DNA of 64,000 nt, from contig NZ_JADPMV010000001.1 in assembly GCF_018398425.1 (NCBI RefSeq), forward strand, positions 682,001-746,000, in the 5' to 3' direction. Each line of letters starts with the position of its first letter. The stretch's first letter is position 1. Source of the stretch: Pseudomonas lalucatii (GTDB lineage: Bacteria; Pseudomonadota; Gammaproteobacteria; Pseudomonadales; Pseudomonadaceae). A program made the translations under genes and the position numbers. Below the pieces are notes generated by a model, which saw nothing but the letters and a program-made list of their open reading frames with translations, ran no database searches and was not told where the DNA came from. Below, one piece after another: positions 54,507-58,122 of this stretch.

Positions 54507-55205
54507 ATGAGCAACGTCGATCACGCCGAAATCGCCAAATTCGAAGCCCTCGCCCACCGCTGGTGGGATCGCGAGAGCGAGTTCAAACCGCTGCACGACA
54601 TCAACCCGCTGCGGGTCAACTGGATCGACGAGCGCGTCGGCCTGGCCGGCAAGCGCGTGCTCGACGTCGGCTGCGGCGGCGGCATCCTCAGCGAGGCCAT
54701 GGCCCAGCGCGGGGCGAGCGTCACCGGCATCGACATGGGCGAGGCACCGCTGGCCGTGGCCCGACTGCACCAGCTGGAGTCCGGCGTATCGGTGGACTAC
54801 CGGCAGATCACCGCCGAGGCCATCGCCGCAGAAATGCCCGAGCAGTTCGACGTGGTCACCTGCCTGGAGATGCTCGAACACGTGCCGGACCCGGCCTCGG
54901 TGATCCGCGCCTGCCACGCCCTGGTCAAGCCCGGCGGCCAGGTGTTCTTCTCCACCATCAACCGCAACCCCAAGGCCTACCTGTTCGCGGTGATCGGCGC
55001 CGAGTACCTGCTGCGCCTGCTGCCACGCGGCACCCACGACTTCAAGAAGTTCATCCGCCCTTCCGAGCTGGGCGCCTGGAGCCGCGCCGCCGGCCTCGAG
55101 GTCAAGGACATCGTCGGCCTGACCTACAACCCGCTGACCAAGCACTACAAGCTGGAAGCCGACGTCGACGTCAACTACATGATCCAGACCCTGAAGGAGG
55201 GCTAG
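54507..55205 (+). CDS. ubiG: Ubiquinone biosynthesis O-methyltransferase
   Basis: This 232-residue SAM methyltransferase starts [20 protein letters not shown] and has [16 protein letters not shown] (~50) and [13 protein letters not shown] (~115). It ends [20 protein letters not shown] plus a short tail, all typical of UbiG. It carries out both O-methylations in ubiquinone synthesis, near the inner membrane. Its TAG stop is followed immediately by the left end of a 266-bp inverted-repeat element that separates it from mupP; in PAO1 the two genes are adjacent. Confidence 0.97.
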
Positions 55206-55470
55206 GGCGTGCCATTGGTTATTTCCCTGCTGCGTTGCTGCCAGAAAACCGGCCAGGCTAGGCGCTGGCCGCAGGCAATGGTTGTTCCATTGCCAAGGAC
55301 AGCAACAACGCATGGCCGATTTTCTGACGCAACCCATAGGGCCGGGTCTGTTTTGGCGCGATGCGGCGTTTCTCGCCGCTCATTTGGAACAACCAAACTT
55401 CACGGCTCGTGCCTTGCCTCGCGCCAAAACAGACTCCGGCGCAGCGAGGGAAATAGCCGATGACACGCCC
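55205..55470. mobile_element. MITE-like element with 30-bp terminal inverted repeats between ubiG and mupP
   Basis: The left end (55205-55234, GGGCGTGCCATTGGTTATTT and so on) and the inverted right end (55440-55470, GGGCGTGTCATCGGCTATTT) match over ~30 bases with three mismatches and one gap. Inside are a 16-base perfect inverted repeat (GTCTGTTTTGGCGCGA 55346-55361 versus 55419-55434) and a ~20-base imperfect one (GGCC..TTTTCTG, 55231-55253 versus 55314-55333). Short hairpins include GGCAATGG/CCATTGCC, GCGGCG/CGCCGC and TTTGG/CCAAA. It has no coding capacity. The first base is the last base of the ubiG stop, and the right end contains a ribosome-site-like GCGAGGG and the mupP ATG. No target duplication is evident. 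Confidence 0.75.
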
Positions 55471-56143
55471 AGTGCGCCTGCGCGCGGTTCTTTTCGACAT
55501 GGACGGCACCCTGCTCGACAGCGCGCCGGACTTTATCGCCATCTGCCAGGCGATGCGCGCCGAGCGCGGCCTGGCGCCCATCGCCGACAAGCTGATTCGC
55601 GACCAGATCTCCGGGGGCGCCCGCGCCATGGTCGCCGCCAGCTTCGCCCTGCCCGCCGAGGCCGAGCAGTTCGAGGCCTTGCGCCTGGAGTTCCTCGAGC
55701 GCTACCAGCAGCACTGCGCCGTGCTCACCCGCCCGTTCGACGGCATCGAGCAGCTGCTCGCCGACATCGAGCGGGCCAAGCTGACCTGGGGCGTGGTCAC
55801 CAACAAACCGCTGCGCTATGCCGAGCCGATCATGCAGCAGCTGGGCCTGGCCGAACGCTCGGCGCTGCTGATCTGCCCGGACCATGTGAGCCGCAGCAAG
55901 CCCGACCCGGAACCCATGACCCTGGCCTGCAGCCGCCTGGGCCTGGAGCCGGCCAGCGTGCTGTTCGTCGGCGACGACCTGCGCGACATCGAGTCGGGCC
56001 GCGCCGCCGGCACCCGCACCGCCGCGGTGACCTACGGCTACATCCACCCCGAAGACAACCCGCGCAACTGGGGCGCCGACGTGGTGGTCGACCACCCGCT
56101 GGAATTGCGCGCCGTGCTCGACCGGGCGCTGTGCTCCTGCTGA
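55460..56143 (+). CDS. mupP: MupP, N-acetylmuramic acid 6-phosphate phosphatase (HAD family)
   Basis: This 227-residue phosphoglycolate-phosphatase-like HAD protein has the nucleophile motif [16 protein letters not shown] (residues 9-24), [13 protein letters not shown] (motif II, ~113), [10 protein letters not shown] (motif III Lys, ~148) and [17 protein letters not shown] (motif IV, ~170). MupP acts in the anabolic recycling of cell-wall muropeptides in Pseudomonas. The first codons (ATG ACA CGC CC) are part of the right terminal repeat of the element at 55205-55470, which also supplies AGCGAGGG upstream. A GTG or other internal start at codon 5 or 6 is a possible alternative. Confidence 0.93.
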
Positions 56144-57195: not shown

Positions 57196-58122
57196 ATGGG
57201 TCCCTCAAGCCAGACCAACACCATAGATTTCGATGCGGCCAAGCTGAAGCGCCTGGGCTTCTCCAATCAGCATCCCCGCCCCCTGCGCCGCACCAGCCTG
57301 GTCCAGCTGCGCCAGCAGCTCGCCCTGCAGCTGCAGACCAGCCTGGACGCCGAACGCGTGCTCTCGCTGTTCTTCGCCGCCGTGCAGCGCCTGGTGCCGC
57401 TGGACGCCTTGAGCTACCAGCAGCCGATCAGCGACCTGCGCCTGGAACTGGGCGAACGCGCCAGCCACTCCGCCGCCTACCGCCTCAGCCATGACGGCGA
57501 ATACCTCGGCGAACTGGTGTTCCGTCGCCGGCTGCGCTTCAGCGAGGAGGAGCTGGCCCAGCTCGAGTCGTTGCTGGCCAGCCTGCTGTTTCCCCTGCGC
57601 AACGCCCTGCTCTATCGCGCCGCCATCCAGGATGCCCTGCGCGACCCGCTGACCGGCGCCGGCAACCGCGTCGCCATGGACCAGACCCTGGCCCGCGAGG
57701 TCGAACTGGCGCGACGCAACCTGCTGCCGCTGTCCGTGCTGATGCTCGACCTCGATCACTTCAAGCAGGTCAACGACAGGCACGGCCACAGCGTCGGCGA
57801 CGAAGTCCTCAAGGCCGTCGCCAATACCCTGAAGAACCAGCTGCGCAACGTCGACATGGTGTTCCGCTACGGCGGCGAGGAATTTCTCGTGCTGCTGTCC
57901 GGCACCCCTCGGGAGGCCGCCGGCATGATCGGCGAGCGCCTGCGCCATGCCGTGCTGGAATTGCAGTGCCTGGCCCAGGGCCACCCCATCGAGCTGTCGA
58001 TCAGTCTCGGCTGCGCCACCCTGCTGCCGGGCGAGGCGGCGGAGAGCCTGCTGCGCCGCGCCGACAGTGCGCTCTATGTGGCCAAGCGCAAGGGCCGCAA
58101 CCGCCTGACCATGGCCGGCTGA
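57196..58122 (+). CDS. GGDEF-domain diguanylate cyclase
   Basis: This 308-residue protein has an N-terminal ~130-residue GAF-like segment (QTSLDAERVLSLFFAAVQRL) and a C-terminal GGDEF domain (~140-305) with DPLTGAGNRVAMD, LMLDLDHFKQVNDRHGHSVG and the active-site RYGGEEFLVLLSG. The inhibitory-site motif RNVD lies five residues before GGEEF. It is expected to make cyclic di-GMP in the cytoplasm and to be product-inhibited. No membrane segment is present. The PAO1 counterpart is PA3177. It ends at a strong terminator shared with rluB. Confidence 0.93.
   Translation: MGPSSQTNTIDFDAAKLKRLGFSNQHPRPLRRTSLVQLRQQLALQLQTSLDAERVLSLFFAAVQRLVPLDALSYQQPISDLRLELGERASHSAAYRLSHDGEYLGELVFRRRLRFSEEELAQLESLLASLLFPLRNALLYRAAIQDALRDPLTGAGNRVAMDQTLAREVELARRNLLPLSVLMLDLDHFKQVNDRHGHSVGDEVLKAVANTLKNQLRNVDMVFRYGGEEFLVLLSGTPREAAGMIGERLRHAVLELQCLAQGHPIELSISLGCATLLPGEAAESLLRRADSALYVAKRKGRNRLTMAG

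Follow-up and report, generated by a model that had tools for sequence, protein, structure and literature searches.

In the window, by which we mean the whole 64,000-nt stretch of Pseudomonas lalucatii DNA that was analysed, ubiG and mupP are separated by a discrete nested palindrome of 266 bp (Table 1). In the mupP reading frame as extended by this element, the NF009696 match starts at residue 6, which corresponds to model position 2; the MupP model thus starts near residue 5 of this frame, and the element therefore adds four residues.

Table 1. Features of the ubiG-mupP region, in window positions.
Feature	Position	Strand	Basis and remarks
ubiG	54507..55205	+	NCBIfam TIGR01983 above cut-off; the element completes the stop
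Whole element	55205..55470	+	266 bp, non-autonomous, structured; extra copies, filled versus insert-free sites
Left terminal inverted repeat, end type C	55205..55233	+	starts on the final base of the ubiG stop
Left hairpin arm, module copy 1	55234..55333	+	inner part Watson-Crick in the window copy; consensus structure; mapped from columns 32-132 of alignment A1
Small conserved hairpin between the arms, CCCATAGGG region	55334..55340	+	A1 columns 133-140
Right hairpin arm, module copy 2, inverted	55341..55440	-	own-genome match to model R1; tandem G.A pairs appear on the minus-strand reading (G.A counts)
Right terminal inverted repeat	55441..55470	+	contains the ribosome-site-like sequence and the ATG
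GAGGG, ribosome-site-like (putative function)	55446..55450	+	9 nt before the ATG
Element-borne ATG in the mupP frame (putative start)	55460..55462	+	ORF, site comparison
mupP reading frame, extended by the element	55460..56143	+	ORF; NCBIfam NF009696 above cut-off
Ancestral mupP start position	55472..55474	+	GTG in the window, ATG in the other three filled species

The inverted repeats described in the initial annotation are all present. The imperfect terminal repeats given as ~30 bp measure 24 nt at 88% identity (55205-55228/55447-55470), or ~30 nt by gapped alignment; the inner repeat runs over 19 nt at 95% (55346-55364/55416-55434) and is indeed perfect over its first 16; and the third pair of 17 nt at 88% (55242-55258/55310-55326) is accompanied by smaller ones, as had been noted. 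The left end was correctly said to coincide with the final base of the ubiG stop, the G of the TAG at 55203-55205, and the right end does overlap the mupP frame, by 11 bases (ATG at 55460, end at 55470) and not by the ten first counted. The remark that the element has no coding capacity is acceptable as a judgement only, since open reading frames run across it, such as one of 84 aa at 55209-55463. The element is short, has terminal inverted repeats and carries no transposase gene, as is the case for MITEs. Its predicted folding is unusually strong, both as RNA (55200-55480, -163.7 versus -106.6 +/- 5.4 kcal/mol in shuffles, z -10.7) and as DNA (the element, -97.6 versus -50.9 +/- 3.7 in shuffles, z -12.7), with none of the 200 shuffles made for each test being equally stable.

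That a non-autonomous element inserted at this place had been proposed from the single copy, and both dispersed copies and empty sites were found. Two further copies, with 75% and 72% identity, are present in the same genome, at least one match occurs in 33 of 99 genomes of the genus (own genome included), and relatives with insert-free sites are described below; a mobile structured element is hence almost certainly at hand. Copies of the family end in GGG...CCC with TA flanks. TA stands on both sides of 20 of the 50 copies with automatically called boundaries, a count from which eight same-site duplicates and truncated copies were left out and in which a few boundaries, including that of the window copy, were mis-called by the automatic method; among sampled copies the corresponding counts are 11 of 12 in genome G627 and 6 of 8 in G539. 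The window copy itself is flanked by TA on the left and by A only on the right. The 12 copies sampled in G627 are 96.3-99.3% identical and 266-267 bp long and lie in unrelated flanks, the family having therefore moved recently in this genome, in which the end pattern, with up to two mismatches, has 47 forward and 45 reverse matches. In another genome (G001), deleted forms of 57-174 bp and enlarged forms of 295-309 bp occur, the latter (L115, L113, L118) bearing within one arm an additional inverted pair (GGCGGCGATCCGCTAGGCGG and relatives). One of the own-genome copies (L002) has a different end, AGAACCTGCCC..., unlike that of other copies in the genus. At five loci (L004, L025, L070, L072, L088) the inverted repeat seems to extend past the element into the flanks; these copies may have entered palindromes that were already there, for example terminators, or the local alignment may have been extended by chance.

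The two arms of the element are inverted copies of one module of ~100 nt. A 103-position model made from one arm also finds the second arm, 1 nt away and on the opposite strand, in many elements (e.g., G586:C8:57605-57707 and 57709-57811). The consensus of 39 non-redundant Pseudomonas copies (alignment A1, consisting of 69 full copies minus 27 that were too similar and minus the length variants L097, L099 and L115) comprises 92 pairs, 67 of which are changed on both sides. Covariance over copies, proposed as a check in the initial annotation, bears out the fold: 96.2% of the cells of A1 are paired, versus 78.3% in shuffles, and two-sided cells number 593 versus 151 +/- 10, a value reached in none of 500 shuffles, although these covariation figures are inflated by related rows. 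When the partner column is displaced by 1-3 columns, pairing falls to 35-42%. The inner part of the arm, which folding programs leave open, aligns on its G-rich strand as a helix in which G.A pairs stand in tandem. Among 49 arms, positions 6-7 have two G.A pairs in 26, two Watson-Crick pairs in 15 and other combinations in 8; at positions 9-10, the respective counts are 35, 10 and 4 (n = 49 arms). These counts leave out 11 of the 60 rows of alignment A2, which lack the exact hairpin, and are uncorrected for row kinship; A2 itself omits L187 and L099 from 62 chosen arms. The two-base units switch together, which supports real pairing.

Where a probe over the right junction matched through it, among the matches listed in order of E-value, the ubiG-mupP insertion was found in four of 398 genomes of the genus (G000, G198, G151, G270). 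All of the 16 other loci from this search are without insert, 14 of them reading AAGGAGGCCTRATG and ten having a ubiG-like end upstream (by eye). A separate comparison likewise gave an insert-free site in 13 of 13 readable relatives, with 16 of its 30 loci left out as being on the minus strand or without the motif. In insert-free loci with ubiG, the ribosome site of mupP overlaps the ubiG end, and the stop abuts or overlaps the start. Six relatives (L151-L155, L159) have a different sequence, not a ubiG end, just upstream of the mupP ribosome site; no ubiG end was found in the three of them in which it was looked for, and the junction has therefore been rearranged there in another way. Filled sites read TA/GGGCG...CGCCC/AATG in three species and TA/GGGCG...CGCCC/AGTG in the window. 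A full TA duplication would give one more base on the right; this base is absent at the filled ubiG-mupP sites, which is a point against the explanation favoured below. With this base missing, the element ATG lies 12 nt before the ancestral start, and in frame with it, in all four filled sites.

The best explanation as a whole, to which we assign a probability of about 0.8, is an IS5-type MITE insertion with a replacement mupP start and coupling of the two genes. According to it, a structured miniature element with IS5-family-type ends, belonging to a widespread family of inverted pairs of ~100-nt hairpin modules, would have been moved by an IS5-like transposase acting on its ends, as we infer for the window copy, and would have inserted at the TA beside the ubiG stop in an ancestor of the four Pseudomonas species. 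The insertion would have parted mupP from the ribosome site within the ubiG end, and the right end of the element would provide a replacement ribosome site together with an in-frame ATG. Compared with the ancestral start position, only the element ATG is preceded at normal spacing by a ribosome-site-like sequence, and this ATG probably serves as the mupP start. The initial annotation was right about the element and plausibly so about this start.

In the mRNA, the two ends of the element may pair and thereby hold the ubiG stop near the new mupP start. In the folds predicted for the RNA of all four filled species, nt 8-10 downstream of the ubiG stop are paired to the element ATG, and nt 20-23 to all but one of the five bases in the ribosome-site-like GAGGG/AAGGG. 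A ribosome halted at the ubiG stop would, judging from ribosome footprints, cover nt 8-10 after the stop. A ribosome finishing ubiG might open the base of the stem, so that translation of mupP would stay coupled to that of ubiG; in the proposed model, the old stop-to-start coupling would be kept because the element folds out between the two. Coupling through the end stem is a tentative proposal drawn from predicted folds.

At the ubiG-mupP site, the window species and G151 differ at 1 of 266 element positions, versus 16.5% of fourfold sites in ubiG (n = 109) and 20.5% in mupP (n = 117) (pooled fourfold sites 42/226, Fisher p 1.7e-14). The farthest of the species differs at 21 of 266 element positions, with 29.4% of fourfold sites changed in ubiG and 33.7% in mupP (Fisher p 4.7e-11). 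A divergence so far below that of neighbouring fourfold sites suggests that the element has been taken into use. At another site shared by four species, the element is 0.4-1.9% and the 100-bp flanks are 2-8% different; at one shared by five species, the values are 1.1-6.4% for the element, 4-16% for the left flank and 1-7% for the right flank; and at the L020/L021 site of two species, they are 1/268, 25/100 and 0/100, respectively. The low divergence of the element is clear at the ACAACCC site, while the 100 bp to the right of the element at the GAGGGTG site are just as conserved as the element itself. Taken together, low divergence is strong at ubiG-mupP and suggestive or mixed at the three other shared sites. 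It fits the earlier proposal that the element was domesticated; a mupP start at the element ATG is made less certain by the ancestral in-frame start, which persists just outside the element and likewise counts against our best explanation. A further point against the latter are the variants in paired columns, which at the four shared sites are mostly one-sided (25, versus 7 two-sided), unlike what upkeep of pairing in place would give; in dispersed copies, 37 are one-sided and 38 two-sided.

The alternative that survives best is that of a selfish mobile element only, which sits harmlessly in the operon while mupP is translated from its old start or through read-through coupling, and whose low divergence stems from self-correction of the palindrome by template switching between the arms and not from host use. 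This reading we consider unlikely, if serious, and the retained ancestral start fits it. Strict Watson-Crick pairs predominate in the consensus, and the ratio of G-U to A-C is balanced in the outer arm helices (11:16 and 12:13; 36:19 in the terminal stem), as expected from correction at the DNA level, at which we read the upkeep of pairing as mainly taking place. Paired columns at ubiG-mupP are, in addition, less variable than unpaired ones (13 variant states over 101 pairs versus 11 over 64 columns); however, the unpaired columns, too, change less than fourfold sites. Moreover, the old ribosome site is now 266 nt off and the element ATG is in frame in four of four species, both of which speak against a purely selfish element.

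Less probable still, and in our view improbable, is a reading of the core as the gene of a structured RNA, or as a cis-regulatory RNA such as an attenuator or processing site, that a transposon carries. The strong RNA fold, the covariation and the conserved loops would suit an RNA, as would the overall excess of G-U over A-C (70:42 over 87 strong pairs, p 0.010, from non-independent cells); this excess, however, is missing from the outer arm helices. The G.A forms of the two arms lie on opposite strands, as seen from the counts and from L175, and therefore no single transcript has both. Neither the window stretch nor nine further loci matched an Rfam family at gathering score; a match to mir-3150 (27.8 bits, cut-off 100, E 0.0092) was taken as a hairpin artefact. 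Within the element, no promoter-like site was found and no operon-strand terminator either: of the three predicted terminators, one is on the minus strand, and the other two overlap each other directly downstream of the element, within mupP. An ordinary intercistronic ubiG-mupP leader without insertion, to which conservation across four species at the site could have pointed, is refuted by the relatives with insert-free sites and by copies at unrelated sites.

The ends of the family vary, with the types seen including AGGGTCTGTTGCCGTTTC, AGGGGGCGTTCTCAATTAG, AGGGYGTGTCATCA, AGGGCCTGTTAACAC, AGAGCCTATCC and AGGAACCTCTGAAC. For the proposed IS5-type insertion, candidate partners come from two genomes. 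In G012, an IS of ~857 bp with an IS5-family transposase has the end type AGGGTCTGTTGCCGTTTC found in many copies; its insertion site is CTAG, and a plasmid stretch annotated as ISPa67 is 89% identical to it. In G539, an IS of ~810 bp occurs at five places with AGGGCGTGTTAACAC ends, which differ by two mismatches from the end pattern that the miniature elements of this genome have, and the one copy that was read contains two frames of an IS5-family transposase, each just below the curated whole-protein cut-off. For the end type of the window copy, a search of 17 genomes by transposase returned only weak or partial relatives in four of them and none in the own genome, and a search of 17 genomes by end pattern gave no IS-sized pair among the places listed, which is a point against the best explanation. 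A candidate partner IS (L327) was rejected as a short remnant in which the transposase is absent.

The apical-loop 17-mer of the module occurs in at least 120 stretches, with ~30 estimated to be expected by chance in 257 Gb. Among the matches listed, 100 places have enough flank, and 83 of these 100 have an outer inverted repeat, which spans 262-276 bp in 56 cases and 277-323 bp in 27, flank extension included. Among the matches listed, named hosts include Stutzerimonas, Thiodiazotropha, Gilvimarinus, Thalassotalea, Wenzhouxiangella and Chromatiales. The module model, whose training set overlaps with some of the groups searched, matches 37 of 229 genomes of the class (36 of 196 genera) and 54 of 249 genomes of the phylum (27 of 131 genera), own genome counted in each case; of the 54 phylum genomes, 40 lie outside the class, 32 of these in one family. 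Plasmid matches come from Halomonas, P. aeruginosa and a partial Citrobacter record. No match was found in the phages collection; the exact 17-mer occurs in 16 viral contigs, and the module context (by filter) in one of them. In two Thiodiazotropha genomes of 4.9 Mb (L175, G411) and 4.5 Mb (L179, G412), the AGGGCCTGTTAACAC end pattern has 61 forward and 85 reverse, and 68 forward and 67 reverse matches, respectively.

Bacterial MITEs are usually viewed as decaying stubs of IS elements. A more speculative view, which we put forward tentatively, is that of a phylum-wide, non-autonomous superfamily, the lasting identity of which would be its folded DNA core of two inverted hairpins with tandem G.A pairs and not its ends. 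Such a core may outlive changes of transposase by acquiring new ends, with a cruciform or single-strand fold holding the ends close to each other in transposition; because it would fold out of the mRNA, the element could sit inside operons, where it may be taken into use repeatedly. A core with a defined fold that recurs over many genera under different ends is therefore probably functional; candidate functions lie in transposition efficiency, in shielding the host operon, or in both. Together with its insert-free relatives, the ubiG-mupP site constitutes a natural experiment, in which an operon survived insertion at a coupled stop/start junction. The conserved folded core beneath changing ends is the wider point, and it is not visible from a single copy.

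Several known repeat families resemble the element in part. As far as described in the available parts of the sources, Correia/NEMIS, ERIC and RUP (PMC2229807) and QMITE2 (PMC10969869) share with it the size of 100-300 bp, terminal inverted repeats, intergenic location and stable folds, with TA ends in several; an inverted pair of homologous hairpin modules, tandem G.A pairs or a conserved core beneath changing ends are, however, not mentioned there. A description of the core was likewise not contained in the available parts of PMC2718517, PMC3116915, PMC10969869, PMC6382973 and PMC2229807; none was recognised in the open-licence literature as far as accessible, which is no proof of absence, and a search for module sequence strings led to listings in two papers, both unrelated. 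The CIR repeats of Caulobacter and Brucella (PMC2229807) are comparable in having two long, linker-joined arms in a proposed RNA fold, yet in the available description they have no closing terminal stem, carry GANTC motifs in the terminal loop and are alphaproteobacterial. Dispersed palindromic repeats of Pseudomonas are further known as R0-R200 of P. fluorescens (PMC2718517) and as REPINs (PMC3116915). The former, according to the part of the source available, include R6 with 34-bp inverted repeats, R26 of 352 bp and R200 of 320 bp; these listed sizes differ from 266 bp, although the element may still belong to one of the R families. REPINs, as described in the accessible part of the source, consist of two inverted REPs tied to RAYT proteins, unlike the element. 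The IS5 family (NCBIfam IS5_3, ISPa67-like), finally, has members with the end type of other copies of the family (G012) or with ends two mismatches from it (G539), whereas the window element is without a transposase and, beyond the ends, its core resembles by eye neither of these two IS.
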